A DNA stretch of 34,012 nt from Akkermansiaceae bacterium (GTDB lineage Bacteria > Verrucomicrobiota > Verrucomicrobiia > Verrucomicrobiales > Akkermansiaceae). Position numbers and translations under genes: made by a program. The stretch is from NCBI GenBank assembly GCA_013001695.1, contig JABDMC010000135.1:1-34012 (forward strand), given 5' to 3'. The notes beneath the pieces are model-generated. The model was not told the origin of the DNA and did not search any database. It saw nothing but the letters and a program-made list of their open reading frames with translations. This document shows, piece after piece, positions 14,411 to 33,633 of the stretch. Each line of letters starts with the position of its first letter. The stretch's first letter is position 1.

Positions 14411-14489
14411 GCGCGCCGTTTCCGCCGGGCGGGGCGTTGTTTGCTCCCTTCCGGCGGTCCTCATTTAGAACACCGATCCACCACATACG

Positions 14490-17829: not shown

Positions 17830-18261
17830 ATGACACTGACACACACCCAAAAGACCAAAGCAGCGAAGCCGGGCATGACTCTCATCGAGTTGACCGTCGT
17901 GATCCTCGTCCTTCTCTCGCTCATTAGTATCCTCTTCGTCGGCGCCCGCGCCTGGAAGAGGGGATCCGATCGGGCCGCCTCGATCCTGGAAATTCGTAAC
18001 GTGCAGCAAGCCGTTCGTTCCTTCCAGAACATCAACAATTACAATCCCGGCGATGCCGGTGTGATTGGTGCGGCCGACATCTTCGGGCCCGACGCGTTCA
18101 TCGCGGTGAACCCGACGACCGAAGGACACCCGGCTGGCACCGCATACAGCTACGCCATTGCGGCTCCCACGGACTGCCCGGCGCTCAGCACCCTCTACAT
18201 GACGGTGACGGGCGGATTGGATGCCTCCTATTACATGCCCGCCGACATCACCGGCTGGTAA
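17830..18261 (+). CDS. Type IV pilin-like / major pseudopilin
   Basis: The product is 143 residues with a class III (prepilin) signal: a 15-residue basic leader ending in Gly15, then MTLIELTVVILVLLSLISIL. This fits prepilin peptidase cleavage between Gly15 and Met16, with the conserved Glu at +5. The hydrophobic helix would pack into the core of a pilus or pseudopilus. The globular part is small and includes VQQAVRSFQNINNYNPGD, typical of GspG/PilA-like helices, and ends near Trp143. It is set apart by a long leader and followed at once by a strong hairpin, so it is probably expressed separately and more strongly than the assembly genes, as a main subunit would be. Confidence 0.88.
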   Translation: MTLTHTQKTKAAKPGMTLIELTVVILVLLSLISILFVGARAWKRGSDRAASILEIRNVQQAVRSFQNINNYNPGDAGVIGAADIFGPDAFIAVNPTTEGHPAGTAYSYAIAAPTDCPALSTLYMTVTGGLDASYYMPADITGW

Positions 18262-18298
18262 TGGAGCAGAGAGTCTCCGACTTTCTTTAGCGAATTTG

Positions 18299-18336
18299 CG
18301 AGCTCCCTGCCATCCGGCAGGGAGCTCGTCTCGTTT
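18299..18336 (+). terminator. Probable terminator after the pilin gene
   Basis: CGAGCTCCCTGCC (18299-18311) and GGCAGGGAGCTCG (18316-18328) form a perfect 13-bp stem with a four-base loop ATCC. The following TCTCGTTT is only moderately T-rich, so termination may be partial, allowing some read-through into the assembly genes. Confidence 0.75.
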
Positions 18337-18527
18337 CGGGGGGGGCGGAGGGGGCCCGGGCCGGGGGGTGGGCCGGGGCGCCGCGGGGGAACCCGGGGGG
18401 CGGCTCGGGGGGGGGATTCCGCCGGACGCCGGGGAGACTGCAAAAGTCGGAAGGTCCGGTAAAAATTCCGCTGGGGCTGTAAGAATAAGGCAAGAAAACA
18501 AGAAAATCCGGGAGCATATTTAATAAA
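18337..18527. other. G-rich tract followed by AT-rich sequence, no gene
   Basis: From about 18337 to 18416 the plus strand is a near-continuous series of G runs, several of six or more, then the sequence switches to AT-rich by 18480. No coding pattern is seen. The G runs could form quadruplexes or mark a hard-to-sequence region. Confidence 0.6.
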
Positions 18528-18545
18528 AATGATTGAACAATCATT
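18528..18545. promoter_or_regulatory. Perfect palindrome overlapping a promoter (possible operator)
   Basis: AATGATTG-AA-CAATCATT is a perfect 8+8 inverted repeat. It covers the -35 hexamer of the candidate promoter at 18533-18561, the arrangement expected of a repressor or activator site that controls the ABC transporter and pilus assembly genes. Confidence 0.45.
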
Positions 18546-18561
18546 GATTCTTCATTATTAA
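18533..18561 (+). promoter_or_regulatory. Candidate promoter for the ABC/pilus assembly operon
   Basis: TTGAAC (18533-18538) and TATTAA (18556-18561) are separated by 17 bases. The ATG of the next gene is only 11 bases after the -10 element, so the transcript would have almost no leader (close to leaderless). Confidence 0.45.
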
Positions 18562-18572
18562 CAATTCGACAT

Positions 18573-19244
18573 ATGAGTGTCCGCGAGGAGCAATGTTCAC
18601 CCGCTGGCCCGGCACTCAGCATCGAGTCGGGCCTTGCCATTGGCTACCGCAGCGTTCTGGCTGCGAGTGCCGAGGAAGTGTCCCTGGAAGCAGGGACGCA
18701 TTACCTGCTGGCGCGCAACGGACGAGGGAAGACGACCCTCCTGAAAACCCTGGTGGGCCTTCTCAAGCCCCTGCGGGGCCGCTATGAGCTGCACGGCGCC
18801 TGCCAGTTCGTCAGCGACGACCTTGGATTCGATCCGGAACTCAGCGCGCGCCTGGTATTTTCGAGCCTCATTCCGAAGGCGCGCCGGGCGGAAGCCTTCG
18901 CGATGGCGGAGCGGCTGGAGCTGGATGTGAAGAAATCCTTCAGCCAGCTGTCTCTTGGGAACCGCAAGAAGGTGGGGCTGGTCGTGGCGGAGTTCAACAT
19001 CGATCCGGCCAAGGCGAACGTGGTGTTGTTCGACGAGCCCTTCACGGGCCTCGACGCCCCGGCTCGCGAAGCGTTCCAGGAGCACTGGGAGCAATGCGGC
19101 GACGGCGTCCTGCGCCTCCTGAGCTGCCATCCCGATTTTGACGACATGGAAATGCCGAGCGCCGTCGTGATCTCCGACGAGAAGATCTTCCATGGAGGCG
19201 ACGGCACCCGCACCTGGCGGGACTTCCGCAAGATGCTGAACTGA
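18573..19244 (+). CDS. ABC transporter ATP-binding protein (PilH-like position)
   Basis: The product is 223 residues with a single nucleotide-binding domain. Walker A reads A47-RNGRGKTT, so the usual first Gly is Ala while K53 and T54 are kept. The signature is L126-S-L-G129, Walker B is VVLFDEP with D154 and E155, the D-loop is TGLD, and the switch His is H186. It would drive the membrane protein encoded seven bases downstream. Placed between a pilin gene and pilM/N/O/P/Q-like genes, it sits where Myxococcus xanthus has the ABC genes pilG-pilH-pilI needed for pilus assembly. That role is inferred from gene order. It could also export a small molecule. Confidence 0.85.
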   Translation: MSVREEQCSPAGPALSIESGLAIGYRSVLAASAEEVSLEAGTHYLLARNGRGKTTLLKTLVGLLKPLRGRYELHGACQFVSDDLGFDPELSARLVFSSLIPKARRAEAFAMAERLELDVKKSFSQLSLGNRKKVGLVVAEFNIDPAKANVVLFDEPFTGLDAPAREAFQEHWEQCGDGVLRLLSCHPDFDDMEMPSAVVISDEKIFHGGDGTRTWRDFRKMLN

Positions 19245-19251
19245 AAAGACG

Positions 19252-20022
19252 ATGCGCCCCTTCCTCCTTACTGTGACAACGCTGTTCGCCCGCAAGGGCT
19301 GGGTGGTGGCCCTCCTGGCCGCCATCGCGCTGCCATGGGTTCTTCCCTACCTCACCCCGTACGAGATGAACGTGCGGCTGCTCGAGCCGGCGCGCGCGCA
19401 GGTCGCCTGGCAGGTGGCATGGGTGATCGCGCTGCTCTGGACCTTCTCGCAGGCGGCCCGGCTCGGGGCGGCGAATTCCCGCACCGGCGTCGGGGCCTAC
19501 TTCCGGAGTTGCGGGATCAGCGGCATCTCGCAGCTCTTCCAGATCTGGCTCGCCACGATGGTCTACCTGCTGCCGGTGGTGGTGGTGGCCGCCGCGGTGT
19601 GCCTCCTCGGGGCCATGCCCGGGAACGCGCAGGAAGCCTCCATGTGGGTCGCCACCAACCTGCAGTATGCGGCCCTCTTCACGCTCGTCGTCGGTCCCCT
19701 GGCCCTCCTCGCGGTGGCGCTCGGGAGCCGCTTCGGGTCCCTTGTGGGCTATGCCCTTCCGGTGACCCTCTGCCTCTACGGCCTCTACGGGGTGCTCTTC
19801 CTCGGCCAGACCATCAAGCTGCGCGACAACGTCCTGCTCGAGTGGCTCTACGCGGCCTCGCCCCACTACCATCTCGCCGACCTGACGCCCCGCCTCGTGT
19901 TCAAGCTGGGGAACTACCCGCCGGAGACCTTCGTCTCCCTGCTCGCCTACTTCATCGGCATCACGGTGGTCCTCGGGGTGGTCTCCAGTTCCTTCTTCCG
20001 CACCGAGCCGCTGAAACACTGA
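19252..20022 (+). CDS. ABC-2-type transporter permease (PilI-like position)
   Basis: The product is 256 residues, almost wholly hydrophobic, with about six transmembrane helices: residues around 17-37, 50-68, 99-121, 140-162, 166-188 and 232-250 are visible as long hydrophobic stretches. It starts seven bases after the ATPase gene and is its evident membrane partner. Size and topology fit the ABC-2 export permease class. It ends two bases before the next gene, within the same tight cluster. Its substrate is not known; the pilus-locus context suggests a role in assembling or anchoring the machine. Confidence 0.75.
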   Translation: MRPFLLTVTTLFARKGWVVALLAAIALPWVLPYLTPYEMNVRLLEPARAQVAWQVAWVIALLWTFSQAARLGAANSRTGVGAYFRSCGISGISQLFQIWLATMVYLLPVVVVAAAVCLLGAMPGNAQEASMWVATNLQYAALFTLVVGPLALLAVALGSRFGSLVGYALPVTLCLYGLYGVLFLGQTIKLRDNVLLEWLYAASPHYHLADLTPRLVFKLGNYPPETFVSLLAYFIGITVVLGVVSSSFFRTEPLKH

Positions 20023-20023
20023 C

Positions 20024-21004
20024 ATGAACCTCAACGCAAAACGCTGGTCCGCAGGGGCCGTTTTGATCCTGGGCGGGCTCGCCTGGGCGGCGAACGCGTC
20101 GGCGTTGATGTCGGGCAACGCCTTCGAAGGACGGGCCAACATCCTGACGCTGAAGGGCAGTCCCTTCGGGCGCACCCTGGCGGTGGCCATGCGGGGCCCG
20201 GTGGATGTCTACTGGCACCAGGGTGAGGCCCATCACGTCTCCGGCCCGGGAAATGACGCGCACGATTGCGCGAATTGCTCGACCCACGACGCGGCGTGCG
20301 AGGAGCACACCCCGGGGGGAACCGCCGACATGCGCGAGGCGGTGAACGGGACCAAGACGGTCGATCCGCCGCGCTGGAGCCTGCGAACCTTCGCGCTCGA
20401 CCAGATCGCGGACTGGCGCAAGGCGTTCTACACCCGGACCAACCCCTTCGGAAGCACGAAGATGCACGAGGCCTACATCATGAGCGAGACGGAGAAGCGC
20501 CTTCGCCTCAGCTACGAGATGGATCCCGGAAACTTCGCGGCCTACGGTTCCTACTTCCTGTTCCTGAGCGAGGCGCTCTCGGCGTGGGAGAAGGAGGAGC
20601 GGCGGGACGAGGTGCACCGCCGGGCGCGGTCCGCGGCGTTGCAGCTGTCCTACCAGACGATCCAGGTCTGCCGCGGCCGGCAGGATGACCCGGCGGCCTT
20701 GCTGACGGCGGCCGTGGCGGCGCACGACCACGCCAACCTCCTCATCGGGACGCGCACCGCGGAAGGCCTCGAGAGAGCCCGCCGGTTCGTGGCGATCCAG
20801 GATGCCTGCCTGCGCGAGTTCGGGGCCTTGAGGGAGCGCCTCGAGTCCGCCGGCCAATGGGAGCGCATCCCCAGCCAACGCCTCCTCGAAATGGACCTCC
20901 AGGAGGACCTTCTCCGGAAATACCTCCAGGCGAACATCGACTATCTCAATTCCAAAGCGTCCCGGCAGACCACCAAATCCATCACTTCACCTTCCACCTC
21001 GTGA
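20024..21004 (+). CDS. Exported protein with His/Cys-rich segment, unknown family
   Basis: The product is 326 residues with an N-terminal signal/anchor (about 8-27, ending ANASA). Residues 65-95 hold an unusual cluster of possible metal ligands: H65, H70, H71, H80, C82, C85, H88, C92 and H95. The rest is helical and charged, with many Tyr residues (FAAYGSYFLFLSEALSAWEK). I recognise no family. It lies between the ABC permease (one-base gap) and the PilT-like ATPase (four-base GTGA overlap), so it probably works with the ABC transporter; in M. xanthus the comparable accessory gene is pilG. Its stop TGA lies at 21002-21004. Confidence 0.7.
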   Translation: MNLNAKRWSAGAVLILGGLAWAANASALMSGNAFEGRANILTLKGSPFGRTLAVAMRGPVDVYWHQGEAHHVSGPGNDAHDCANCSTHDAACEEHTPGGTADMREAVNGTKTVDPPRWSLRTFALDQIADWRKAFYTRTNPFGSTKMHEAYIMSETEKRLRLSYEMDPGNFAAYGSYFLFLSEALSAWEKEERRDEVHRRARSAALQLSYQTIQVCRGRQDDPAALLTAAVAAHDHANLLIGTRTAEGLERARRFVAIQDACLREFGALRERLESAGQWERIPSQRLLEMDLQEDLLRKYLQANIDYLNSKASRQTTKSITSPSTS

Positions 21005-22263
21005 GCACCGTAGCCCAACCCCCGGCCGTCCCCAATACGCCCGAGTTCCGTCCCTACCAGGCCGGCATGACCGGGATCGACCTTCTCGCCGTCACCTTCG
21101 AGGCCTGCGAGGGCCGGAACGTCTCGGACATCCAGTTTCGCTCGAACCGCCCCACCTACGTGGAAACGAACCACGGCATGGAGTGCCTCGATTTCCTCGG
21201 CATCCTCACCGATGTCCAGATGCTGGAGATCTACAAGGAGCTCCTCCGCCGGCAGGAAAAGGCGGCCCACGGGTTCGGGTCGGGGCACGTCGAGGCCGGC
21301 GAAGACCAGAAGATCACCCAGGCGCTGCAGCGCTTCCAGGAGTCGAAGGTCGATGACTTCTCCTCGGACGGCATTCCGCACACCGGCAACACCAAGGTGT
21401 CCGGGCGTCTCCGGATCCAGGTGCACCTCTCGGCATCGGGTCTCGGCATCACCTGCCGGATCCTCAACGACGGCATTCCCGGTCTCGACGCGCTCGGGAT
21501 CGACGGCGACACCGGCGCGGCCCTGAAGCGCGGGGTGTGCCGCCGGGCCGGCCTCGGGCTGGTCACCGGACCGACCGGTTCCGGCAAGTCGACCACCCTG
21601 GCGGCCATCATCGACTGGCTCCGGCAGAATCATCCCAAGCACATCGTGACGGTCGAGGACCCGATCGAGTACCGCTATCCGGCCGACATGGAGCACCCGA
21701 ACTACCCCGGGCATCGCTGCATGGCGCCGAGCATCGTCACCCAGCAGGAAGTCGGGCGGGACCTGGCGAGCTACCGCCAGGGATTGAAGGATGTCCTGCG
21801 GAAGGCGCCGATGGTCATTCTCCTCGGGGAGATCCGGGACCGCGACGCCATGGACACCTGCCTGGAGGCCGCGCAAACCGGCCACCTCGTGCTTTCCACC
21901 CTCCACACCACCGGGGCGGTGAAGACCATGGGCCGGATCCTCGAGATGTACCCGACCGAGCGGCAGCCCGCGATCCTGAATCGTCTCAGCGAGATGATGA
22001 TCTTCATTCACTCGCAGGGGCTCCTGAAGGGCACCGAGGGCAAGCGGGTCCTGACCTACGAGTTTCTCCAGAACAACGACGACGCCGTGGCGAGTGCCAT
22101 CGCGAACTACGCGTCGGGATCGAACTCCCTCGAGGACGTCATCCGGCGGGCCGGCAACATCGCCTGGGACGACAACCTGCAGAGGCTCTTCGACAAGGGC
22201 ATCATCTCGGGGGATGTCTTCGAGTCGGCCCGCATGAAACGCACCGAGCAAGACGACCTGTGA
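21001..22263 (+). CDS. PilT-like ATPase (type IV pilus retraction family)
   Basis: The product is 420 residues from a GTG at 21001 that overlaps the previous stop as GTGA; upstream in-frame codons lie inside the preceding gene. The N-terminal domain contains NVSDIQFRSNRPTYVETNHG, like the PAS-type domain of PilT. The ATPase core has Walker A GPTGSGKST (190-198), an Asp box (VTVEDPIEYRY), Walker B VILLGEIRD (272-280, catalytic E277) and the His box TGHLVLSTLH (293-302). PilT depolymerises pili; the AIRNLIRE motif needed for retraction in classic PilT is not seen, the matching region reading AIANYASGSNSLEDVIRRAG. The ATPase call is firm; retraction is likely but unproven. Confidence 0.88.
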   Translation: MSTVAQPPAVPNTPEFRPYQAGMTGIDLLAVTFEACEGRNVSDIQFRSNRPTYVETNHGMECLDFLGILTDVQMLEIYKELLRRQEKAAHGFGSGHVEAGEDQKITQALQRFQESKVDDFSSDGIPHTGNTKVSGRLRIQVHLSASGLGITCRILNDGIPGLDALGIDGDTGAALKRGVCRRAGLGLVTGPTGSGKSTTLAAIIDWLRQNHPKHIVTVEDPIEYRYPADMEHPNYPGHRCMAPSIVTQQEVGRDLASYRQGLKDVLRKAPMVILLGEIRDRDAMDTCLEAAQTGHLVLSTLHTTGAVKTMGRILEMYPTERQPAILNRLSEMMIFIHSQGLLKGTEGKRVLTYEFLQNNDDAVASAIANYASGSNSLEDVIRRAGNIAWDDNLQRLFDKGIISGDVFESARMKRTEQDDL

Positions 22264-22318
22264 ACCTTCCCGCGGCACCGGGACTTCCCGGCGGCCGCCC
22301 CCGACCCGGAACACCAGC

Positions 22319-22426: not shown

Positions 22427-22459
22427 CCAGCCCTACCGGACCCTGACACCCAAACAACT

Positions 22460-24217
22460 GTGGACACCCTTTTACACCCATCAGAACTCTCGACCTGGCA
22501 GCGATTCGTCCAGGCGCGGCGCCTCCATAAGCAGAGCAGCCGCTCCCGGAATCCGGATTGGTTCCGTCCGGCGCTGGAACTCGGCAGCCAGCTGCACCTC
22601 TTCGTCGAGGGGAAGAGCATCACCGCGGCCCGCCTCGGCGTGAAGGAGGGGGCCGGCACGACGTGGACGCGCATCGACTCGCCCCGGCTCGACATCGAGA
22701 CCGAGGACCTGCGGACCTTCCTTGCCAAGCTCCGCGCCGAGCACCTGTCCGGCAAGGCCCGCTCCCTGGGGGTCGTCCTTCACCTCGCGGATGAGTTCGC
22801 CATCTCCGAACTCGCGCCGCAACAGGACGAGCCGGAGGACCTCGCCACCTTCCGCGAAACCCTCCGGAACGCCCCCGAGACCCTCCTCGATGACCAGAAC
22901 ATTTCCGGGAGCGAGCTGTCCTTCCGGTTCTTTCCCTACCCGGGCACCGAGGATGAATCCCAGCCCGGCGCGGCCATCACGATCTCCCGGAAGCACCAGG
23001 CATTCCTCCGCCAGTTCCGCGAGATCGGGGAGGAAATGAAATTCCCGATCCGCACCGCGGCGGTCAGCGCCCCCCTGGTGGCCCTCGGAGCGCTTCCCAA
23101 GATCATCCCGACCGCTCCCAACCAGCCGTTCTGCGCGTTGCTCTCCTACTCGACCTTCTCGGTCCTGGCCTTCTTCAAGACGGGCGGTGAACTTCTCATG
23201 CTGCGGTCCGTCCGGCACCATTCCGGCGGGGTGGCGCCCAACGTGAGCGGCGTGGTGCAGACCATGGCGGCGGCCCTCGAGCTTCCGGACCCGGTCTCGC
23301 TGGTGATTCCGCTTTCGCAGCAGGAGAACGGGCCCTCGGTCCCGCCGCTGCCGAACGCCTCGCTCCTCAACTGGCAGCAGGTGGTCGGCTTCGAACCCGG
23401 GATTCCCTTCGAATTCCAGGCCGCCACGGCCACCGTGATTGCTCCCGAGGAGCGGCAGGGGATGGCCGACACCGACACCTTCCTCGAGCTCGATGACAAC
23501 CAGTGGGCCCTCCAGGATTTCCTGCCGCCCTCCGAGGACGAGATCGAGCTCTATCCGGGTCCCACCGAGATGAAGATCCTGCGCTTCGGCAGCATCGGCG
23601 TGAAGGTCGCGGCCCTCGCGCTCCTGCTGTCCATCGGGTGGACCGGGCTCCGCGCCTTCCAGATCCTGCGGGATCCGGCGTGGCACGCCAAGAAGTCGGA
23701 CATGAACGATGCCGCCAACCAGATCCTGGTGCAGAAGATCAAGCGCTTCGAGGTGTGGGACTCCTTCCTCGCCGACCGCTCCAAGGCGTGGGTCACGATG
23801 GAGCTCCTGAACCGGATCTTCCCGAACCCCACCGCCGTCGTGCTCATCATGGCGGACCACACCGTGCGCCCGGAACGAAGCCGGGAAGGCGACGCCGGGA
23901 GCCTCGTCAAGGAGTGGCGGCTGAAGGGGTTCTCCAACGAGGAGGCCCTCAAGCACCTCACCGCGATCAACACCCGGGACGGCATCGAGGCGATCTTCAA
24001 GGCCACCCAGGAAGTCACCGGCGACGCGGCCCTCGATCCCACCCCCGACACGCGGACCGTGGTGGTGAACCTGGTGGCCTCCGAAAACAAGCGCTACCGG
24101 CCGGATTCGGAGGACACCAGCTACGAGAGCCAGTTTCCGTTCCAGTTTGACCTGACCATCTCGCAGCGCTTCTCGGCAGAGGATCCGCTCGCCATCCCAA
24201 CCGCCGCAGCACCATGA
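22460..24217 (+). CDS. PilM/PilN-like (GspL-like) assembly protein
   Basis: The product is 585 residues, started at GTG 22460 after a G-poor leader. A large cytoplasmic part (1-370) precedes one transmembrane helix (about 376-403, VAALALLLSIGWTGL) and a periplasmic domain (404-585) that begins with helical NQILVQKIKRFEVWDSFL. This layout, cytoplasmic actin-like domain then helix then ferredoxin-like periplasmic domain, is that of GspL or of PilM fused to PilN. The context, directly before PilO-like and PilP-like genes and a secretin, supports it. Classical PilM nucleotide-binding motifs are not obvious. It would join the cytoplasmic ATPases to the inner-membrane platform. The call rests on topology and order more than motifs. 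Confidence 0.6.
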   Translation: MDTLLHPSELSTWQRFVQARRLHKQSSRSRNPDWFRPALELGSQLHLFVEGKSITAARLGVKEGAGTTWTRIDSPRLDIETEDLRTFLAKLRAEHLSGKARSLGVVLHLADEFAISELAPQQDEPEDLATFRETLRNAPETLLDDQNISGSELSFRFFPYPGTEDESQPGAAITISRKHQAFLRQFREIGEEMKFPIRTAAVSAPLVALGALPKIIPTAPNQPFCALLSYSTFSVLAFFKTGGELLMLRSVRHHSGGVAPNVSGVVQTMAAALELPDPVSLVIPLSQQENGPSVPPLPNASLLNWQQVVGFEPGIPFEFQAATATVIAPEERQGMADTDTFLELDDNQWALQDFLPPSEDEIELYPGPTEMKILRFGSIGVKVAALALLLSIGWTGLRAFQILRDPAWHAKKSDMNDAANQILVQKIKRFEVWDSFLADRSKAWVTMELLNRIFPNPTAVVLIMADHTVRPERSREGDAGSLVKEWRLKGFSNEEALKHLTAINTRDGIEAIFKATQEVTGDAALDPTPDTRTVVVNLVASENKRYRPDSEDTSYESQFPFQFDLTISQRFSAEDPLAIPTAAAP

Positions 24218-24753
24218 ACCCGTTTTACAAGGAACCCGTCATCGTCTTTGGAGGCGTGGCCCCGCTGGTCGCGGTGGTCGTGGCCTTTGTCGTCCTCTTC
24301 AACTACAAGGGGAAGCTCGAGACCGAGCACCGCATGAAGCAGAGAAGCTACGAGGAGGTCCAGAAGGTCGTCCGCGAACGGCAGCGGCTGGAGGCCAAGG
24401 TCGACGAGCAGGCCCCCTACCTGAACAGCTGGATGAGCCTCTTCGAGAAGCCGACCGCCACGAGCGTGAACGGCTTCCTTGGCGCCGTGCAGAAGAAGTT
24501 CGGTGGCGAGGAATTCCAGCAAACGGCCTTCCGCCGGAGCTCGTCCTCGAGCGGGATCGGCAGCGCCAGCGCGCAGCCCTCCATCCAGATCCAGCTTGCC
24601 TTCCGCGGGACCTACAGCGCCCTGCAGAATGCCTTCGTGGAGCTGGAGACCAGCATGCCCCAGCTCCAGCTCGACAGCATCAAGATCACCCCGAACGCAA
24701 ATCGCAAGGTCCTCAATGCCGACCTTGTCTACACCGCCTGGCAAACCGAATGA
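24214..24753 (+). CDS. PilO-like (GspM-like) inner-membrane assembly protein
   Basis: The product is 179 residues. A short cytoplasmic N-terminus leads to one transmembrane helix (9-31, VAPLVAVVVAFVVLF), then a coiled-coil (about 34-66, rich in Lys/Glu/Arg), then a small periplasmic domain with FRGTYSALQNAFVELETSMP, which has the pattern of PilO/GspM ferredoxin-like folds. A Ser-rich stretch lies at 107-118. The start ATG overlaps the previous TGA (ATGA at 24214-24217) and its own stop overlaps the next gene by four bases. It would form the alignment complex with the PilM/N-like and PilP-like proteins. Confidence 0.65.
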   Translation: MNPFYKEPVIVFGGVAPLVAVVVAFVVLFNYKGKLETEHRMKQRSYEEVQKVVRERQRLEAKVDEQAPYLNSWMSLFEKPTATSVNGFLGAVQKKFGGEEFQQTAFRRSSSSSGIGSASAQPSIQIQLAFRGTYSALQNAFVELETSMPQLQLDSIKITPNANRKVLNADLVYTAWQTE

Positions 24754-25373
24754 AATCCTACCTTTCCCTCCTCGTATTGATTCCGCTGGCGGCCCCGGTC
24801 CTCGGCGTGCAGGAACCGAAGTCCCCGGCTCCCGCGGAGCCCGGGGCCCCGGCCACCGCCGCGCCGACCGGCCCCACCCCGTCGCGCCTCGTGGGCGAGC
24901 ACGTCGAATCCTACGTGGCGCAGCTGCGGGCGCGCATGGCGATCAACGGGCGCGATCGCGGCCCCTTCGGCCTCTTCCAGGACCTCTCGAACTCGAAGCA
25001 GGGTCTTCTTCCCGTCACGACCCGCAAGATCGAGAGGAAGCCTCAAACGCCGTTCGCGGACGTGGTGAAATCCATCCCGATCGCGGCGGTCTTTCCGCTC
25101 GAGCAGGAATTCCTCGTGGGATCCCGCACCTTCCGGACCGGGCAGGTCTTCCCGCTCGTGGCGTCCGGCGAAAACATCTCCGTGCAGGTCGTGGCGGTGC
25201 GCTCCTCGAGCGTCCGCTTCAAGAACATCCGTTCCGGAGAAGTCCTGGACAAGCGCCTCGATCTTCTCCCCGACGGGGTGACCTCCGGGGGCGGCTCCAT
25301 CCAGGTCCAGGGCGTCACCTCCAACCGGGACGAGGCGTCCGAACCGCTCCACATCAACCTCTACGGAAAATAA
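24750..25373 (+). CDS. Exported PilP-like protein of the alignment complex
   Basis: The product is 207 residues with a signal peptide (1-20, LSLLVLIPLAAPVLG), a Pro/Ala-rich linker (about 22-46), then a soluble domain. The later part (FRTGQVFPLVASGENISVQV, VRFKNIRSGEVLDKRLDLLP) is beta-rich and ends GSIQVQGVTS..., fitting a small beta domain that could dock on the secretin, as PilP/GspC do. The similarity is in position and layout, not in a clear sequence motif. It overlaps the previous gene by four bases and precedes the secretin by 50 bases. Confidence 0.55.
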   Translation: MKSYLSLLVLIPLAAPVLGVQEPKSPAPAEPGAPATAAPTGPTPSRLVGEHVESYVAQLRARMAINGRDRGPFGLFQDLSNSKQGLLPVTTRKIERKPQTPFADVVKSIPIAAVFPLEQEFLVGSRTFRTGQVFPLVASGENISVQVVAVRSSSVRFKNIRSGEVLDKRLDLLPDGVTSGGGSIQVQGVTSNRDEASEPLHINLYGK

Positions 25374-25423
25374 TCACCCCACGCCTCACCCTTTGTACCG
25401 AAACCTGGCAACTGCTACCCACC

Positions 25424-27259
25424 ATGAATAGAATGAAACTGCTGCTACCCTGCATCCTGACCGGTCTGGCCCTCGTGCTTGCGCCCCAGGCTGTGACCGC
25501 ACAAGGATCCGATCTTCCGGAGCCGACCGCGACCAACGAGGCTGCCCCCGATGGCGGCCTCCCCGCCCCGGAACTGCAACTCCCCAGTCCGGACTTCGAC
25601 GAACCCGAGCCCGCGGAGGAATCCGGGGGCTTCTCGGATCTTCCCATTCCGACCCCGGTGGTGGCTGCCCCGAGTCCGGTGGGTGCTCCGCCGCTGCCCA
25701 GCGCCGAGGAGCTCGACAACGTTCCGCCGCCTCCCCCGGGACCCGGTGGCGCCAAGCCCGCGCCGGTCGGCCCGGACGGGGAACCCGGCGCGGACCCCAT
25801 CGAGGAGGCCGACGGCGGTTTCCTGATCCGCGATGCCGCCCTCAACGACATCTTCCAGATGCTCGCCAAGCGGGCCGGAAAGCAGTACTTCCACAATGCC
25901 CGCATCGCCGGGCCGGAGTTCAACGTGAGCGGCCACCTCAACGGCGGCGACCCGCTCTCCCAGATGGAGGAACTCGCCTTCCAGTACGGCCTGACGCTCT
26001 ACCGCAAGGGCGAAACGGTCTACGCCATGAGCCCCGAACAGCTCAACCAGGTCCCCGCGGAAGAATGGCACTACCAGCTCGCCTACCTCCGGCCGACCGA
26101 CATCGAGCAGATCAAGGCCTTGATCCAGCCGCTCCTTTCGCCGACCGGCCTGGTGAACTTCGAGCCCAAGACCAACACCATCATCGTCATCGACTCCTCC
26201 CAGCGGGTCGAGCGGGCCCAGGCCCTCCTCGAGAAGGTCGACCAGCCCAAGGGACAGATCGTGATCGAGGTGAAGATCCTGAGCGTCAACAGCTCGGCGG
26301 CGCAGCGCGTCGGCGTCAACTGGCTCTCGCTCGGACTCGAGGGGGTGGGCTTCGACGTCAAGACGAGCCTCGCCGGCGTCTTCGGCCTCGGGACTCCCGG
26401 GACCGCCTTCGCGGACAGCAATGTCGTCCTCTCCCCGCTCGAGATCAAGGCCGTCCTCCGGGCCCTCAACTCCGGGGGCCTCGTGAACCAGACCTCCAAC
26501 CCGACCCTCATCACGGAGGACAACGAGCTCGCCACGATCTCGCTCATCGATCGTGTCCCGATCATCACGACCACGATCAACCAGAGCAACGACAACACCA
26601 ACATCACCGACGAGGTGCGCTACCAGATCGATGCCAAGGACCCCGTGGGCGATCCCACCACCACCCGCGAGATCGGGGTGACCATGGCGGTGACCCCGAC
26701 GCTCCAGCCGGACGGCACGATCCGCATGAAGATGCGGCCCCGGTCGGCGCAGATCGTCGACGAGATCGAGGGCGGCAGCGGCAACATCTACCCGCGGGTC
26801 AGCGAGTCGATGATCGAGACCATCGCGCGGATTCCCGACGGATACTCGCTGGTGGTCGGCGGCTTCTACGGCCAGGTGAAGCAACGGGACGACAACAAGA
26901 TCCCGCTGCTCGGCGACATCCCGATCATCAACTTCTTCTTCAAGAACCGCGACACGCTGAAGGAAACCGCGAGTCTCGTGTTCGTGGTCACCCCGACGTC
27001 CTACAACCCGTCGTCGGCGGCCCAGAACTGCAGGATTGCCGGGCGGCTTCGCGACCGTCTCAGCATCGAGGAAGGACACGACTGGATCGATGACTCCCGC
27101 CCGGGCGCGGCCCATCGGCCCGACCTCGCGCGCGGGCTCAACGGGCTTCGTCCCGACCTTCCGGACCCGAGTCCCTCGATCCGCGATTTCCAGCCGACCC
27201 TCGAATGTTGCGACGACGGACCGAAGAGCGTCCTCAGCCGCGTGCGACGCCGTCGCTAA
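25424..27259 (+). CDS. Secretin (PilQ/GspD family outer-membrane channel)
   Basis: The product is 611 residues from the ATG at 25424. Signal peptide 1-26 is followed by a Pro-rich acidic linker (about 28-130). An N0/STN-like domain (131-210, FLIRDAALNDIFQMLAKRAG) and an N1-type domain (about 220-275, YLRPTDIEQIKALIQPLLSP) lead to the secretin core (276-527). The core has KGQIVIEVKILSVN, a NQTSNPTLITEDNELATISL stretch, VVGGFYGQ (477) and IPLLGDIPIINFFFKN, then FVVTPTSY (520). An 84-residue Arg/Asp-rich extension (528-611) follows, perhaps for pilotin binding. Twelve or more subunits would form the outer-membrane gate. Family membership is certain. Confidence 0.95.
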   Translation: MNRMKLLLPCILTGLALVLAPQAVTAQGSDLPEPTATNEAAPDGGLPAPELQLPSPDFDEPEPAEESGGFSDLPIPTPVVAAPSPVGAPPLPSAEELDNVPPPPPGPGGAKPAPVGPDGEPGADPIEEADGGFLIRDAALNDIFQMLAKRAGKQYFHNARIAGPEFNVSGHLNGGDPLSQMEELAFQYGLTLYRKGETVYAMSPEQLNQVPAEEWHYQLAYLRPTDIEQIKALIQPLLSPTGLVNFEPKTNTIIVIDSSQRVERAQALLEKVDQPKGQIVIEVKILSVNSSAAQRVGVNWLSLGLEGVGFDVKTSLAGVFGLGTPGTAFADSNVVLSPLEIKAVLRALNSGGLVNQTSNPTLITEDNELATISLIDRVPIITTTINQSNDNTNITDEVRYQIDAKDPVGDPTTTREIGVTMAVTPTLQPDGTIRMKMRPRSAQIVDEIEGGSGNIYPRVSESMIETIARIPDGYSLVVGGFYGQVKQRDDNKIPLLGDIPIINFFFKNRDTLKETASLVFVVTPTSYNPSSAAQNCRIAGRLRDRLSIEEGHDWIDDSRPGAAHRPDLARGLNGLRPDLPDPSPSIRDFQPTLECCDDGPKSVLSRVRRRR

Positions 27260-27287
27260 CCACCAACCATCACACCCTCCTCAAGCC

Positions 27288-27887
27288 ATGAACCTCGAAG
27301 CAGCATCCACAATCCAGAACGGCGACGACCCCGCCCCGCCGGCGGGGACGCGCCTCGGCAACGCCCAACTGGCGTGTGATCCGGCCTGCCTCGAGAGGAC
27401 GTGCCAGTCCTTGCAGCAGTTCGAACTGGCCACCGAGGAGGAAGTTCGCCAGCTCTACTCCCACGGCTCCGCGGCCCTCGCCGGGCCGCGACCGTGGGAC
27501 CCCCTCGAGTTCGTGGCGGCCCTGCGGGTGAGTGAGCCGGACGCCCGTCCGGTGGAGGTCGAGCGCCTTGGACGCGGGCTTGCAGCAGCCGCGGGCCAGG
27601 CCCTGACCCTCATCCCGTTCGCGGCCCGCATCCCCACCCCCAGCAGCTTCTACGACGACCACGCCGACCTGCGCCTCCAGTGCCACCAGTTGCTCGTCCC
27701 GATCCTCTATGCCGAGGAGATGGAGGTCGTCGGCATCGCATCCATCAACCCGGTGGCCCTCGACCTCGCCGAGCAATTCGTCGTGGCGGATATCCACAGC
27801 CGCACCGGCAACAACCCTCTCATCTCAAAACTCCTGCTTCATCACGACAGCTGGATGTCCCTCTGCCAAAAACAGTTCGCGCTATGA
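27288..27887 (+). CDS. Unknown protein upstream of PilB/GspE, possibly related to its N-terminal domain
   Basis: The product is 199 residues from the ATG at 27288, preceded by a C/A-rich leader after the secretin. It has no signal peptide or membrane helix, so it is cytoplasmic. The C-terminal half (YAEEMEVVGIASINPVALDL then AEQFVVADIHSRTGNN) recalls the N-terminal regulatory domain of GspE/PilB ATPases, and the next gene is such an ATPase whose start overlaps by four bases (ATGA). It may be a detached partner of that ATPase. This is a weak likeness, and otherwise I do not recognise it. Confidence 0.6.
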   Translation: MNLEAASTIQNGDDPAPPAGTRLGNAQLACDPACLERTCQSLQQFELATEEEVRQLYSHGSAALAGPRPWDPLEFVAALRVSEPDARPVEVERLGRGLAAAAGQALTLIPFAARIPTPSSFYDDHADLRLQCHQLLVPILYAEEMEVVGIASINPVALDLAEQFVVADIHSRTGNNPLISKLLLHHDSWMSLCQKQFAL

Positions 27888-29578
27888 TTGATTACGACGG
27901 AATACAGTTCAACGACTTCATCAGCGAGCGGATCATGTCCGTCCTGGTCGAGTGCGACGCATCGCTCGGCGAGCTGGCCCACGACCAGATCCCGAACCGC
28001 GTTTCCCGCTCCATGTTCATGGCGGCCGCGGCGAAGGTGAACGGCCTTCCCTTTCTTCCCAAGGTCGCGGAATTCTGCGACGCGGCCCTCCTCGAGAACT
28101 GCGACACGGCGGTCCTGACCCGCGGGGGGTTCACGCCCATCGCGACCCACGGCAGCCGCCTCGTGGTCGCGATCTCGAACCCGTGGAGCCCGCTCCCGGA
28201 CGAATACCTTTCGCCCCGCTTCCCGAACCTGCAGATCTGCAAGATCGTCACGCTGAGCAGCGAGATCAGCCGGGCCATCGAGCGGGTGGCCACCACCGCG
28301 GGGCCGAACCGCTCGGCCCTCGAGGAGATCGATGTCGAGGACAGCGACGACGGCCTCCAGGACTTCGACGTCACCACCGATTACGAGGAGCCCATCGCGC
28401 AACTGGCCGCCAACGTCCTCGCCACCGCGGTCAAGATGCGGGCCTCCGACATCCACTTCAAGGTCGAGAAGGACAGCTTCTACTACAGCCTGCGGATCGA
28501 CGGCGACCTCGGCGACAAGGTCGAGCTGCCCATGAAGCTCAAGGACCGCATCGACGCCTTCTTCCTGAACCTCATGAAGCTCCCCACCGAGACCCGCAAC
28601 ACCAAGCCGGGAATCTCGGGACGCTTCACGCTGGCGTACTACCACCGCCCGATCGACATCCGCTACGAGCGCCACCGCACCTACCGCGGATATCACGTCA
28701 CGATGCGTCTGCTCGACAAGAGCAACATCAACGTGAAGCTCGGGAAGGGGTCGCTGGCGTTCGACGACGAAACGCTCTTCGAGCTCTCCCGGGTCATGAA
28801 GATCCCGGCGGGAATCATCGTGATGAGCGGCCCGACCGGGTCGGGAAAGTCCACCACCCTCAACGCCATGTTGCGGGAGTTGAACCGCCCCGAGGTCAAT
28901 ATCCTGACGCTCGAGAATCCGGTCGAGGACGAGATCAGCGGCGTCACCCACTGCGACCTCAAGAGCCCCGCGGAATTCAAGCCCATGATCTCGAGTTTCA
29001 TGCGGAGTGACCCCGACATCATCCTCATGGGGGAGGTCCGGGACATCGAGTCCGCGGAGCTCGCCATCGAGGCCGCGGTCACCGGCCACAAGGTCCTCAC
29101 CACGATCCACTGCCCGCGGGCCTCGCAGATCATCGAGCGATTCGAGCAACTGGGCATCGAGCGCTGGAAGATCGCCCAGACGTTGAAGGCCGCCTGCGCG
29201 CAACGGCTTCTCAAGGTCCTCTGCAACCACTGCAAGGTTCCGCAGCACGGGGTCAGCGAGACCGACCGGCGCACCTTCAACCTCGACGAATCGTGGGCCT
29301 CCAAGGAGCTCTTCGAGGGCCGCCCCGGCGGCTGCGCGGAGTGCCGCAACACCGGCTACACCGGCCGGACCGCCATCCTCGAGATCATTCCGATCACCCC
29401 CAAGGTGTCCGACGCGCTTTCGAAGGGGGAAATGAGCCCCTACGACCTCGAGATGCAGCTCTACAAGGAGGGAAGACTCCCGAACCTCCGCCGCAACGGC
29501 CTGCGCGCCCTCGAATCCGGCATCACCGATTTGAAGGCCGTCAGCAAAGTGATCGACATGACTTATTCCGATGAGTGA
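27884..29578 (+). CDS. PilB/GspE-type assembly ATPase
   Basis: The product is 564 residues, the usual length of the family. The N-terminal T2SSE_N-like domain (about 1-150) is followed by MRASDIHFKVEKDSFYYSLR, Walker A GPTGSGKST (316-324), an Asp box (TLENPVEDEI), Walker B IILMGEVRD (379-387, E384) and the His box TGHKVLTTIH. A zinc-binding tetracysteine motif, C447-x2-C450 and C484-x2-C487, is typical of PilB/GspE. It hydrolyses ATP in the cytoplasm to power subunit insertion. The start ATG overlaps the previous TGA; its end overlaps the platform gene by eight bases. The presence of both this ATPase and a PilT-like one favours a dynamic pilus over a pure secretion system. Confidence 0.94.
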   Translation: MIDYDGIQFNDFISERIMSVLVECDASLGELAHDQIPNRVSRSMFMAAAAKVNGLPFLPKVAEFCDAALLENCDTAVLTRGGFTPIATHGSRLVVAISNPWSPLPDEYLSPRFPNLQICKIVTLSSEISRAIERVATTAGPNRSALEEIDVEDSDDGLQDFDVTTDYEEPIAQLAANVLATAVKMRASDIHFKVEKDSFYYSLRIDGDLGDKVELPMKLKDRIDAFFLNLMKLPTETRNTKPGISGRFTLAYYHRPIDIRYERHRTYRGYHVTMRLLDKSNINVKLGKGSLAFDDETLFELSRVMKIPAGIIVMSGPTGSGKSTTLNAMLRELNRPEVNILTLENPVEDEISGVTHCDLKSPAEFKPMISSFMRSDPDIILMGEVRDIESAELAIEAAVTGHKVLTTIHCPRASQIIERFEQLGIERWKIAQTLKAACAQRLLKVLCNHCKVPQHGVSETDRRTFNLDESWASKELFEGRPGGCAECRNTGYTGRTAILEIIPITPKVSDALSKGEMSPYDLEMQLYKEGRLPNLRRNGLRALESGITDLKAVSKVIDMTYSDE

Positions 29579-30731
29579 TACCACCGCCACCGCCAGCCCG
29601 CCGCCCATGTCCGCTTCCCAGGAGCGGGCCAAGACCGCCGTGGACCGGAAGGCCGCCAAGAAGGCCGCCCAGAAGCCCAAGAAGAAGGCCCACTTCAAGA
29701 AGAAGGAGCTGGTCCACATGTTCCGCGGCCTCGCCTCCATGCTGCGGGCCCAGATCAACACCTCCGACGCGCTCAAGTACTACAGCATGGGCCTCCCGAA
29801 CAAGGTCCTCGCCGACACCCTTCACAAGATCCGCCTCGACACGGACGCCGGCATCTCCATTCACGAGGCCTTCAAGCGGACGAAGCGCTTCGATGACATG
29901 ACCGTCGGCCTCATCCAGGCCGGCAGCGACTCCGGCCAGCTCCACCGCGCCTTCTCCGAGCTCTCGACGCGGATCAAGTCGGACCTCCACTTCAAGAAGC
30001 AGGTCAAGAAGGCGGTCCTGATGCCGAGCATCGTGATCTCGGTCCTGATCGGGGCCTTCATCATCTCGCAGGTGAAGATCACGCCGCAGGTCGAGGACAT
30101 GCTGCTCGGCGTCGGCCAGCAGCCGGACGGCCTGACCGCCATCGCCTTCTCGATGAGTCACCTCACCCAGAAGGCGTGGCCCATCGTGGTCCTGTCCCTC
30201 ATCACCTTCATCGTGGTGGTGTGGCGGGTCCCGAAGGTGCGCAACACCATCCTCATCGTCATGATGTCGAAGTGGAGGCTCCTGAACTCCCTCGTGATGA
30301 GCCTCCGCCAGATGACCTTTCTCTCCACCATGGAGCTCCTCTACTCGAACGGCATCAACCTCGCGAAGTCGATCCGCGTCGCGGCGAACTCCATCAAGCA
30401 AACGCCCCTCTACGAGGAGACCCTCAAGGCCGCCGACCAGTACGAGAACTCGGGCGTGCCGCTCTCCACGGCCTTCAGCAAGTACACCTCCGTCGACGAG
30501 CAGGTCGTCCACATGCTCTCGATCGGCGAGCGCTCGGCCTCCATCGACAGCCAGTTGAACATGCTCGCGGAAATGTACGAGGAGGAATCCGAGAGTCACA
30601 TGAACGACTTCACCCAGGTCCTGAACTTCCTGGTGCTGTTGATCGCGGTGACGCTCATCGGGGCCGTTTTCGTCAGCACCTTCCTGCCCATCTTCCTGAT
30701 GGGGCCGAAGATGATGCAGAGCGCCATGTAG
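29571..30731 (+). CDS. PilC/GspF inner-membrane platform protein
   Basis: The product is 386 residues. The cytoplasmic N-terminus is Lys/Ala-rich (about 24-46). Two GspF domains are visible: the first from FRGLASMLRAQINTSDALKY (about 51-70), the second from LRQMTFLSTMELLYSNGINL (about 244-263). Three membrane stretches (about 150-168, 203-220, 354-378) fit the family topology. It forms the platform that the PilB-like ATPase turns or pushes. The start overlaps the ATPase gene by eight bases; an ATG at 29607 is a possible internal start that would shorten the N-terminus by 12 residues. The family call is firm. Confidence 0.92.
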   Translation: MSDTTATASPPPMSASQERAKTAVDRKAAKKAAQKPKKKAHFKKKELVHMFRGLASMLRAQINTSDALKYYSMGLPNKVLADTLHKIRLDTDAGISIHEAFKRTKRFDDMTVGLIQAGSDSGQLHRAFSELSTRIKSDLHFKKQVKKAVLMPSIVISVLIGAFIISQVKITPQVEDMLLGVGQQPDGLTAIAFSMSHLTQKAWPIVVLSLITFIVVVWRVPKVRNTILIVMMSKWRLLNSLVMSLRQMTFLSTMELLYSNGINLAKSIRVAANSIKQTPLYEETLKAADQYENSGVPLSTAFSKYTSVDEQVVHMLSIGERSASIDSQLNMLAEMYEEESESHMNDFTQVLNFLVLLIAVTLIGAVFVSTFLPIFLMGPKMMQSAM

Positions 30732-30753
30732 GAAACAAGAGCCAGAGACAACC

Positions 30754-31173
30754 ATGCAACTCACGAAACTTGACCGCTGGATCCGGGAGCGCTTCATCTA
30801 CCGGACGCACATCTACACGATGCGTCTGCCCGATATCGGCGTGCCCGCCGGGGTCCGCATTGAGGAACTCGAAGAGAGTCCCACCCGGCGCTACCGGTTT
30901 CGCCTCGTCGCGAACGCGGATCGCGACGTGGAGTCGTTGCTCGAATCGCTTCGCGACGCCAACCAGATGTTCGCCACCCGCATCGTCGAATCGAACCCGT
31001 GGTACAAGGCCATCATCGCCCCGGAAGGCAAGAGCTTCTGCTTCCGCGTCTTCTGGTGGGGCCTCACCGTTCTCGGGGTGATGAGCCTGATCACCGCCGG
31101 GGGGGTGGTGCTTGCCGACGAGGCGCGTCGCGGCCAGATCATCGATGCCCTGAACCTGTTCCTGCACGGCTGA
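30754..31173 (+). CDS. Small single-pass membrane protein, unknown
   Basis: The product is 139 residues. A soluble N-terminal part (1-95, with ERFIYRTHIYTMRLPDIG and a mixed-charge helix at 56-72) is followed by one transmembrane helix (about 98-120) and a short tail. It lacks a signal peptide, so the N-terminus is probably cytoplasmic. It sits 22 bases after the platform gene and 67 bases before the pseudopilin, and is probably an accessory part of the machine. No family recognised. Confidence 0.65.
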   Translation: MQLTKLDRWIRERFIYRTHIYTMRLPDIGVPAGVRIEELEESPTRRYRFRLVANADRDVESLLESLRDANQMFATRIVESNPWYKAIIAPEGKSFCFRVFWWGLTVLGVMSLITAGGVVLADEARRGQIIDALNLFLHG

Positions 31174-31240
31174 GGTCCAGCCGGCCGGATTTCCCCGCCC
31201 CATGCCCACGCCCAACCCCAACCCCCCAACGCAACCAACA

Positions 31241-31651
31241 ATGAACACCCTCAACAACCAACCGCCGGGAACGCATCGCGGATTCACGCTGATCGAGATG
31301 ACGCTGGTCATCGCGATTCTCCTGGCCCTTGTCACCGCCTCGACCTACTTCGCCAACAACGTCGGCGACTGGCGCCGCGGCAAGCTGGCCAACGAGGCGC
31401 TGAACGAAGTCTACGCCGCGCAGCGCTCCTACCTCGCCGACAACCCGCGGACCCGGGTCGCCGACCTCACCGACGCCCAGGTGATCCCCTACCTGCCCAT
31501 GAGCGACGGGGCCTACCCCACCGTGCTCGATCTCGACGGAAACACCCTCGATTATGACATCACGGTCAGTCCCCCGGTCCTGATGAGCGGCGGGATTCCC
31601 TACGACCCCTCCGGCGCGGACGACGATTCGCTCTGGGACGTCGGCAAATGA
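31241..31651 (+). CDS. Pseudopilin (minor pilin), GspH/GspG-like
   Basis: The product is 136 residues from the ATG at 31241. An in-frame ATG at 31202 would add 13 Pro/Asn-rich residues, but that stretch looks like the C/A-rich leader seen before other genes here. The prepilin signal is a 14-residue leader ending Gly14, then FTLIEMTLVIAILLALVTAS with the conserved Glu at +5. The soluble part (LNEVYAAQRSYLADNPRTRV, then LDLDGNTLDYDITVSPPVLM) is small and acidic. It probably primes or caps the filament built from the main pilin at 17830, with which it shares only the N-terminal helix type. Confidence 0.85.
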   Translation: MNTLNNQPPGTHRGFTLIEMTLVIAILLALVTASTYFANNVGDWRRGKLANEALNEVYAAQRSYLADNPRTRVADLTDAQVIPYLPMSDGAYPTVLDLDGNTLDYDITVSPPVLMSGGIPYDPSGADDDSLWDVGK

Positions 31652-31655
31652 TGCG

Positions 31656-32153
31656 ATGACGAAGCGGCTTACGGTAGTGGTGATTGCCCTGGCGGGCTGC
31701 TTCGGCCCGCCCGGCAAGGCGCTTGCGGAACCGGTGGCCGCGGTGCCGGCGGAATTCGACTACGTCGGCACCTACCGCCTCGTGAAGAGGGTCAAGTTGC
31801 GCCATGCCGAGGTCTTTCCGGTGGCCATCCGCCCGGTCGACTACCGGGTCTACACCGACGGGATCACCCTCCGCCTCTACGGGAGCCAGGGGGACGGAGG
31901 GCACACCTCCTTCACGATCTATCGCAACGACGGGATCGTGCAGCGCCACAGCGATTCGGTGGTCGAGACGGTTCCCGGGATCCAGGCGCAATCGCTCGTG
32001 GGGCAGGTCCTCCGGCAGGTGTGCCTCACGGAACTCACCCTCACTCTCAACAAGATTCCCGCCCTTTCAGATGTCCTGGAAGTCACCTACGGGCGGCGCC
32101 TGCTTGAATTACCCCGGCCGCAGGATCCTCTTGCGGCGCAAATCGAAGAATAA
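31656..32153 (+). CDS. Exported protein or lipoprotein, unknown
   Basis: The product is 165 residues with an N-terminal signal (MTKRLTVVVIALAGC). Cys15 follows L-A-G, a valid lipobox, but cleavage after A24 (KALA) as an ordinary signal is also possible. The mature part is beta-rich (FDYVGTYRLVKRVKLRHAEV, ITLRLYGSQG, HTSFTIYRNDGIVQRH). Its TAA shares a base with the ATG of the next gene (TAATG), so translation is coupled. If it is a lipoprotein it could be a pilotin-like helper for the secretin; that is a guess from context only. Confidence 0.65.
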   Translation: MTKRLTVVVIALAGCFGPPGKALAEPVAAVPAEFDYVGTYRLVKRVKLRHAEVFPVAIRPVDYRVYTDGITLRLYGSQGDGGHTSFTIYRNDGIVQRHSDSVVETVPGIQAQSLVGQVLRQVCLTELTLTLNKIPALSDVLEVTYGRRLLELPRPQDPLAAQIEE

Positions 32154-33124
32154 TGAACAAGACTGCCGACCCGCCCCAGCCTGCCAGCACCTCCCGTGGA
32201 AATTCCGGAAATGATGACGAGGCGGCCTGCGCGACCCACGCGACCGTGGCGTGCACCACCTGCAACCTCTACAAGTGGTACCCGCCGCTGTTGCTCCTGA
32301 GCACCATCATGGCGGGGGTCTTCTGCTGCCTGTACCTGACGAAGCCGGTGTTCCTGGCGCCGTCCGGGGACGGCTATCCCGGCGCGGTGAGCCCCGCCGT
32401 GGAGACGATGCCCTCGCCGCTCGAGGAGGACGACCTCGAGCCCAAGACGGCGCAGATTCCGGCCCGGATGAATCCGGAGATGGGAGCGCTTCCGGGCGAA
32501 AGCAGGGCCGAGCCCCCCGCGGTGGCCGGGCTGCAGCCCCTCATCACGACTCCCCGGCCGCAGGGCCTCTTCCGGCCCCTCGCGCCCGCCGCGGCCCCCG
32601 ATCCGGAGGATACCCCCGAACCCCTGATCGTGATGGGCGGGGAGAGCGAACCGATCCGCATCCAGCGGACCGCGCCGATTCAACCGATGCGCATCGTGCG
32701 GCGCATTCCGGATCCCGTGGAAGAGCGGACGCCGCAGCCCGAACCGGCGGACCAGCCCGAACCGGCCGCTCCGTCCGGCGAGCCCGTCGTGGCCGGCCCG
32801 CCCGCCGAGTCCGGCCCGCCCCCGGCCGGGGAGGGGGAGGAGGCGTCCCTGGCGGCGTCGACCTTCGACCGCGCTCCGCTTTTGACCGGCCCGATCCTCT
32901 CCCCGGAATCGGCGGACTCCTCCGCCACCCCGGGTCCCGTGGCGGACGCCGGACCACCCACCGGCAGCGACCGGCCCGTGGACGTGGCGGGCCCGCCGGA
33001 AACCCCGGCCGCCCCCGAGTCACAGTATGAGATCGCGGCCTCGTTCATGAGCGAGTTCGCCTCCCGTCCCGAGGAGGTCGCCAGCATCGACCGGGATGAC
33101 CCGCAGTTCACCGCGATTCCCTGA
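32153..33124 (+). CDS. Membrane-anchored proline-rich protein with N-terminal CxxH/CxxC motif
   Basis: The product is 323 residues. The short N-terminus holds a possible zinc site, C26-x2-H29 and C34-x2-C37, just before one transmembrane helix (about 44-65). The remaining ~255 residues are Pro/Ala/Glu-rich and probably extended in the periplasm, as in TonB or GspC-like spanning proteins. A short ordered end (SQYEIAASFMSEFASRPEEV) may bind a partner. The start overlaps the previous stop by one base (TAATG). It has no recognised family. Membrane anchoring is clear; a role in bridging the inner and outer membranes is inferred. Confidence 0.65.
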   Translation: MNKTADPPQPASTSRGNSGNDDEAACATHATVACTTCNLYKWYPPLLLLSTIMAGVFCCLYLTKPVFLAPSGDGYPGAVSPAVETMPSPLEEDDLEPKTAQIPARMNPEMGALPGESRAEPPAVAGLQPLITTPRPQGLFRPLAPAAAPDPEDTPEPLIVMGGESEPIRIQRTAPIQPMRIVRRIPDPVEERTPQPEPADQPEPAAPSGEPVVAGPPAESGPPPAGEGEEASLAASTFDRAPLLTGPILSPESADSSATPGPVADAGPPTGSDRPVDVAGPPETPAAPESQYEIAASFMSEFASRPEEVASIDRDDPQFTAIP

Positions 33125-33150
33125 GCATCGACCCTCGTCCCCTGTTCCCC

Positions 33151-33633
33151 ATGAAGAAGTTACTCGTTCAAATTATCGGAAGCAGCGTGCTGCTGGGCCT
33201 CATGGCAGGTTCCGTCGCGCTCCACTACGCGCACATTTCGGCTGCCCGGGAGATGGGAGCCACCGCCACCTGGGCGGGCGATCCGGACAGCGGTCCGATC
33301 ATCGAAATCGCGCAGGAACGCCCCTCGCCCCTCGCCGGCCTGCGCCGGCCGAGCGAGAGCGCCCGGGATGGAATCGAGGTCCAGACGGTCGCGGCGATGC
33401 AACTCGTCCTCGAAGAGCTGCGGGACTTGCGCGAGGAAAACCAGTCCCTCCGCACCCAGATGAGATCCGAGGCGGACTCCCTGCGCGACCAGGTTTCGGA
33501 ATTCAACCGCGACATCACGGAACTCCAGTTCCGGGTCGATTCCCATAGCGAATCGTTCCGGCCGCTGCGGGTCGCCCCCGACCGGTTCGCGCGCCGCGAA
33601 GCGGCGCACCCGTTGCTTCCGCCGAAGCGCTAG
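33151..33633 (+). CDS. Membrane-anchored coiled-coil protein, unknown
   Basis: The product is 160 residues. An N-terminal transmembrane helix (about 5-25, IGSSVLLGLMAGSVAL) is followed by a linker and a coiled-coil (about 81-132, with heptads such as LEELRDLREENQSLRTQM). The C-terminus is basic. It is the last gene of the cluster, 26 bases after its neighbour, and is followed by a hairpin. It is probably a periplasmic structural or tethering part of the machine. No family recognised. Confidence 0.65.
   Translation: MKKLLVQIIGSSVLLGLMAGSVALHYAHISAAREMGATATWAGDPDSGPIIEIAQERPSPLAGLRRPSESARDGIEVQTVAAMQLVLEELRDLREENQSLRTQMRSEADSLRDQVSEFNRDITELQFRVDSHSESFRPLRVAPDRFARREAAHPLLPPKR

Follow-up and report, generated by a model that had tools for sequence, protein, structure and literature searches.

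A conserved gene cluster for a probable type IV filament machine, linked to an ABC transporter trio in Verrucomicrobiales

Models of type IV filaments are usually drawn without an ATP-binding cassette (ABC) transporter. The closest described system that has one is the type IVa pilus of Myxococcus xanthus, in which PilI is annotated as a permease, PilH as an ATP-binding protein and PilG as an accessory factor, the three being encoded in one operon with pilA (PMC3546991). PilG, PilH and PilI have been reported to be indispensable for moving pilin across the inner membrane (PMC3724824), a requirement that is hard to place and has been poorly traced outside of the group (PMC6060248). In Verrucomicrobium spinosum, fimbriae have been observed at the tips of the prosthecae (PMC12283558). 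Here we describe a machine that is a candidate for building the surface filaments of verrucomicrobia, encoded by 17 plus-strand genes (g1 to g17, in order of position) at 17830–33633 of a 34,012-nucleotide stretch of contig JABDMC010000135.1 from an Akkermansiaceae bacterium; this whole stretch is called the window below. The locus is likely to encode a single, divergent Verrucomicrobiales type IV filament machine, most likely a retractable pilus, of which an ABC module is a functional part. A literature search restricted to open papers returned no description of the cluster.

An earlier, sequence-only reading of the window had listed two proteins with prepilin signals, PilT-like and PilB-like ATPases, a PilC/GspF platform, a secretin, candidates for PilM/N, PilO and PilP, and an ABC ATPase/permease pair. 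All of these elements are present on the plus strand, at the coordinates given below, and family scans confirm the prepilins, the two motor ATPases, the platform and the secretin. Both ABC genes are there as well, but the module is a trio and not a pair, since the gene at 20024–21004 (g4) always travels with them. Wherever the contig extends far enough, nearly all relatives have ATPase, permease and g4 adjacent and in the same order. The ATPase (g2, 18573–19244, 223 aa) matches PF00005 with an E-value of 9e-10 and has a conserved variant Walker A, L-A-R-N-G-R-G-K-T, and an LSxGN signature, with Walker B and the H-loop intact, which suggests an enzyme that is specialised yet ATP-competent. The permease (g3, 19252–20022, 256 aa) gives no match above cut-off on its own and is assigned to the ABC-2 type through its relatives, 7 out of 28 family members matching ABC2_membrane_3 (best E-value 7e-8). 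For the third component (g4, 326 aa), whose assignment is based on its adjacency to g2–g3 and on an AlphaFold2 model with a predicted local distance difference test (pLDDT) score of 85.5, the model consists of a helix at residues 3–30, a disordered linker rich in His and a domain made up of helices only. The best matches in the fold search are tetratricopeptide repeat (TPR) and helical-repeat proteins, none with a Foldseek E-value below 0.05, and this membrane-anchored protein is for that reason called TPR-like only.

The association of the trio with the pilus genes is not limited to this genome. Within a sample of 289 genomes of the order, scored for the families of g6 (PilM/N) and of the permease, the former was found in 102 and the latter in 103, in 19 genera each. 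Both occur in 99 genomes, only g6 in 3, only the permease in 4 and neither in 183 (Fisher p 3e-68, uncorrected for kinship). The two genes share a contig in 77 of the genomes that have both, and all 77 pairs lie within 10.4 kb; the remaining 22 include fragmented assemblies and a relocation in Roseibacillus. Pilus genes are also found in the flanks of 59 of the 80 named loci fetched by the permease alone. The sequence-only reading had proposed a single machine that includes the ABC module, and both the linkage and the co-occurrence support it. The position of the trio varies between genomes: it follows the second pilin, at the other end of the cluster, in Prosthecobacter-type genomes, it is inverted in one genome (G023), and in most sister genomes of the same genus, Roseibacillus, it lies on another contig (loci L050, L054, L056, L057, L082 and L086), where it is still retained as an intact three-gene unit. 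A placement of the relocated trio beside a canonical type II secretion system (T2SS) was considered and rejected, as no such genes are found in those flanks.

Among named genomes, the closest belong to Roseibacillus and other Akkermansiaceae (order Verrucomicrobiales), as had been anticipated for a probable verrucomicrobial, while further carriers bear the names Verrucomicrobiaceae, Prosthecobacter and Chthoniobacteraceae. The linked locus is carried by isolates such as Roseibacillus persicicus (L117), Luteolibacter pohnpeiensis (L119) and Brevifollis gellanilyticus (L153). The commonest order in the relatives is ABC ATPase, permease, g4, PilT, pilin1, M/N, O, P, Q, g10, B, C, g13 and pilin2, and because the genes have conserved homologues there in largely the same order, their grouping is more than chance. 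In the window, pilin1 (g1) stands ahead of the ABC trio, whereas it is found between PilT and M/N in the relatives examined; judged against these, it has moved.

A sister of the trio is found beyond the order. Across the phylum (388 genomes sampled), the profile of the permease matches 27 genomes outside the order, and the genome scan yields matches in Verrucomicrobiota only. Sixteen of these 27 loci were fetched (L177–L192) and all encode a conserved trio composed of an ABC ATPase, a homologous permease and, as third member, a protein of about 290 aa; the other 11 matches fall at positions occupied by members of this sister family. This permease family (E below 1e-50) is present in about 50 of the 388 genomes, representing about 30 families, and aligns with the g3 family over its full length (hhalign E 2.7e-12 over 241 columns). 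At its N-terminus the third protein has a hydrophobic helix; it also carries helical repeats and a D-x-Y-x-H-x-G-type motif. Compared with g4 it gives E-values of 6e-4 (local) and 6e-5 (global, over 264 columns), whereas control families reach no better than 0.009 in local and about 0.1 in global alignment; the third protein and g4 are probably homologous, on evidence that is suggestive and short of proof. The sister trio resembles g2–g4 in combining an ABC ATPase and a homologous permease with a third protein made of a transmembrane (TM) helix and helical repeats. It differs in that its ATPase has an ordinary GPNGAGKT Walker A, unlike the g2 family, and in that it is linked to ExeA-like, GspB-like and GspE/GspF genes and not to a PilT/PilM-N cluster. 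Downstream of most sister trios is a gene for an ExeA-like ATPase, a GspB-like protein or a TPR protein (those with TPR and MshEN-like parts included), and five of the loci have GspE and GspF there. With these neighbours, the link between the ABC module and type IV filament genes recurs outside of the order.

The two prepilins are the only proteins with such a signal among the 17 genes. The probable major pilin (g1, 17830–18261, 143 aa) has a G↓MTLIE cleavage motif and scores 19.0 bits with TIGR02532 (cut-off 16.3), and tandem duplications giving two or three copies of it are seen in three relatives (L072, L073 and L074). The second prepilin (g14, 31202–31651, 149 aa) carries the motif G↓FTLIE and scores 25.6 bits as N_methyl, above the cut-off. 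The putative retraction-type motor (g5, 21001–22263, 420 aa, GTG start) is PilT-like (TIGR01420, E 1e-68), with a GPTGSGKST Walker A, a GEIRD Walker B and a His box, and a PilT-family ATPase is found in nearly all complete loci. The protein also scores well with the plasmid TraJ (172.7 bits) and Dot/Icm DotB (107.8 bits) ATPases, and a long segment separates its Walker A from its Walker B. Elsewhere in the same genome, contig C14 (L173) carries another pilin1-like frame, with 39% identity, and a frame for a PilT-like ATPase, at about 1291–1686 and 14265–14885.

The PilB/GspE-like extension ATPase (g11, 27884–29578, 564 aa) matches TIGR02538 (E 1e-93) and has an MshEN domain, Walker motifs and two CxxC; the PilC/GspF platform (g12, 29571–30731, 386 aa) matches PF00482 (E 5e-35) and TIGR02120 (E 5e-38). 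Both are homologues with intact motifs and with scores under the NCBIfam equivalog cut-offs. The genome carries other GspE/PilB-type ATPases, 30–35% identical to g11, and the locus is therefore an additional system. The AlphaFold2 model of g6 (22460–24217, 585 aa, GTG start; pLDDT 85.4) matches, with its residues 35–359, PilM (2ych, Z 11.9, 4.3 Å, 264 residues) and EpsL in its cytoplasmic domain (1w97, Z 10.8), with FtsA and other actin-like proteins likewise near the top of the structure search. Past the actin-like domain the model continues with a TM helix and a periplasmic domain of ferredoxin-like element order. This predicted layout is that of GspL or of PilM and PilN fused, and the M/N candidate has held up at the level of fold. 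The O candidate (g7, 24214–24753, 179 aa) has held up at the level of profiles, as its matches to GspM_XpsM of NCBIfam (E 7e-9) and to T2SSM_b (E 5e-4) make it a relative of the PilO class. The gene in the PilP/GspC position (g8, 24750–25373, 207 aa) is assigned from its place between O and the secretin in relatives. The secretin itself (g9, 25424–27259, 611 aa; PF00263 E 4e-33, Secretin_N E 3e-10) scores almost alike with GspD (127.1 bits) and PilQ (126.5 bits). A prepilin peptidase is encoded outside the block, the sole Peptidase_A24 match of the genome being on another contig (C185).

In the machine that we propose, g11 would drive extension and assembly through the platform g12, and g5, judging by its relationship to the PilT family alone, would drive retraction and disassembly through the same platform. 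The products of g6, g7 and g8 would form an inner-membrane alignment complex in the style of GspL/GspM, aligned with g9 as the outer-membrane pore. The filament would consist of g1 as the major pilin, with g14 as a second pilin, both processed by the housekeeping Peptidase_A24 enzyme. The trio would combine an ATPase and permease of the ABC-2 exporter type with g4 as a periplasmic TPR-like coupler; by analogy with what is reported for PilH, PilI and PilG, it may be needed for pilus biogenesis, and we infer that it probably moves or inserts a component of the pilus or of the envelope.

The remaining genes, g10, g13 and g15–g17, belong to no recognised family. The first (27288–27887, 199 aa) overlaps pilB and is conserved across the order; hhalign does not support a relation between it and the TPR/MshEN-like protein found near the sister trios (E 0.35). 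A small single-TM protein (g13, 30754–31173, 139 aa) is conserved across families of the order, and an exported protein (g15, 31656–32153, 165 aa) mainly in its own family and one other. They are followed by a Pro-rich single-TM protein with an N-terminal part conserved in the family (g16, 32153–33124, 323 aa) and a single-TM coiled-coil protein with a conserved C-terminus of motif NRdLxELQFRVD...FRPLR (g17, 33151–33633, 160 aa). The g16 product is longer here than in relatives (227–277 aa), and its conservation is limited to the N-terminal part. Profiles of g4, g6, g7, g8, g10 and the permease gave no meaningful match against PDB sequences, and Pfam scans of the whole families of g4, g6, g8 and g10 gave nothing convincing.

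The single strand and many overlaps that had been described are as reported: 4 bp for g4/g5, g6/g7, g7/g8 and g10/g11, 8 bp for g11/g12 and 1 bp for g15/g16. The block is nevertheless interrupted, by a gap of 311 bp downstream of g1 and one of 196 bp downstream of g5. Upstream of it are a pyruvate phosphate dikinase gene, read by eye, and, 3' of that gene, a strong terminator-like hairpin (17355–17383), so that the block starts after an unrelated gene. The scan for promoters and terminators was overall not above chance. The GC skew changes from positive to negative where the pilus cluster begins (about 17–20 kb in the window).

Several observations weigh against a single retractable pilus with the trio as a part. 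The score of g5 with TIGR01420 (pilT_fam) is 231.8 bits, below the cut-off of 319.1, and that of g11 with TIGR02538 is 314.5 bits, below 675.65; as both are well under the curated equivalog scores, membership in the canonical type IVa pili is not claimed. The P candidate g8 has no Pfam or PDB match and no recognised fold, and the block contains neither a minor-pilin set nor a PilY1-like tip protein. One genome (G001) has the cluster with no permease detected, and the unlinked trio in most sister Roseibacillus genomes indicates that co-transcription is not required. That the trio behaves as a separable unit, moved as a whole in the Roseibacillus clade, inverted in G023 and found at the opposite cluster end in Prosthecobacter-type genomes, would also suit an unrelated envelope transporter (for example for lipids, metals or efflux) that only shares the neighbourhood. 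Such a transporter would hardly be expected to co-occur near-perfectly with the pilus genes, unlinked cases included, or to show repeated linkage to type IV filament genes, both in varied arrangements and in a sister family across the phylum, and we regard this explanation as improbable. Less probable still is that the co-occurrence reflects shared ancestry only, by inherited linkage and joint loss without functional coupling. The Fisher test ignores phylogeny and the losses may be few, as in the genus taken as Akkermansia, where all listed genomes lack both; yet the several placements of the trio and its retention after relocation argue for selection keeping both.

Among the alternatives, a T2SS variant has the most in its favour, though we consider it unlikely. 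A short pseudopilus would then push proteins through the secretin, with the PilT-like protein as a second assembly motor and the trio handling the substrate. While the GspL-like fusion, the GspM-like g7, the nearly equal GspD and PilQ scores of g9 and the ExeA/GspB/GspE/GspF-type genes adjoining the sister trio are all compatible with it, the near-constant presence of a PilT-family ATPase points the other way, as retraction ATPases mark retractable type IV pili (PMC4471445), and so do the absence of a GspH, I, J, K pseudopilin set from the 17-gene block and the tandem amplification of pilin1. A retractable pilus with the trio as a working part is still the reading that we favour. On a more tentative level, the trio could be an old, dedicated component of filament machines, shared by two filament systems across Verrucomicrobiota and a counterpart of PilHIG. 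If so, an ATP-driven membrane step would be a recurrent and overlooked part of pilus and T2SS biogenesis. The order-wide trio and the sister trio beside T2SS-like genes make a role of ABC proteins in filament assembly testable in culturable isolates.

Compared with known systems, the locus shares with the T2SS (GspD/E/F/L/M) a GspL-like g6, a GspM-like g7, GspE/GspF-like proteins and a secretin, and differs from it by its dedicated PilT-like ATPase and ABC trio and by having no GspH–K set. Like the Amuc_1098-type pilus of Akkermansia it is a verrucomicrobial secretin system, but g9 scores only 52.4 bits with NF042912 (cut-off 750), and in the genus inferred to be Akkermansia none of the listed genomes has the g6 or the permease family. 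With the TIGR02596-type pilin of the Verru_Chthon cassette, the score is 14.3 bits against a cut-off of 70. In comparison with M. xanthus, PilM and PilN are fused, PilT and PilB are far under the equivalog scores, the trio is beside PilT and not in a pilA operon, and the prepilin peptidase is outside of the cluster. Among the NCBIfam matches listed, there is no PilGHI model. Both systems nevertheless have a pilin and PilB/C/M/N/O/Q-type parts, with g5 and g8 here as candidates for PilT and PilP, and the parallel with pilAGHI drawn by the sequence-only reading is apt in composition: here as in M. xanthus, an ATPase, a permease and an accessory factor are encoded with pilus genes.

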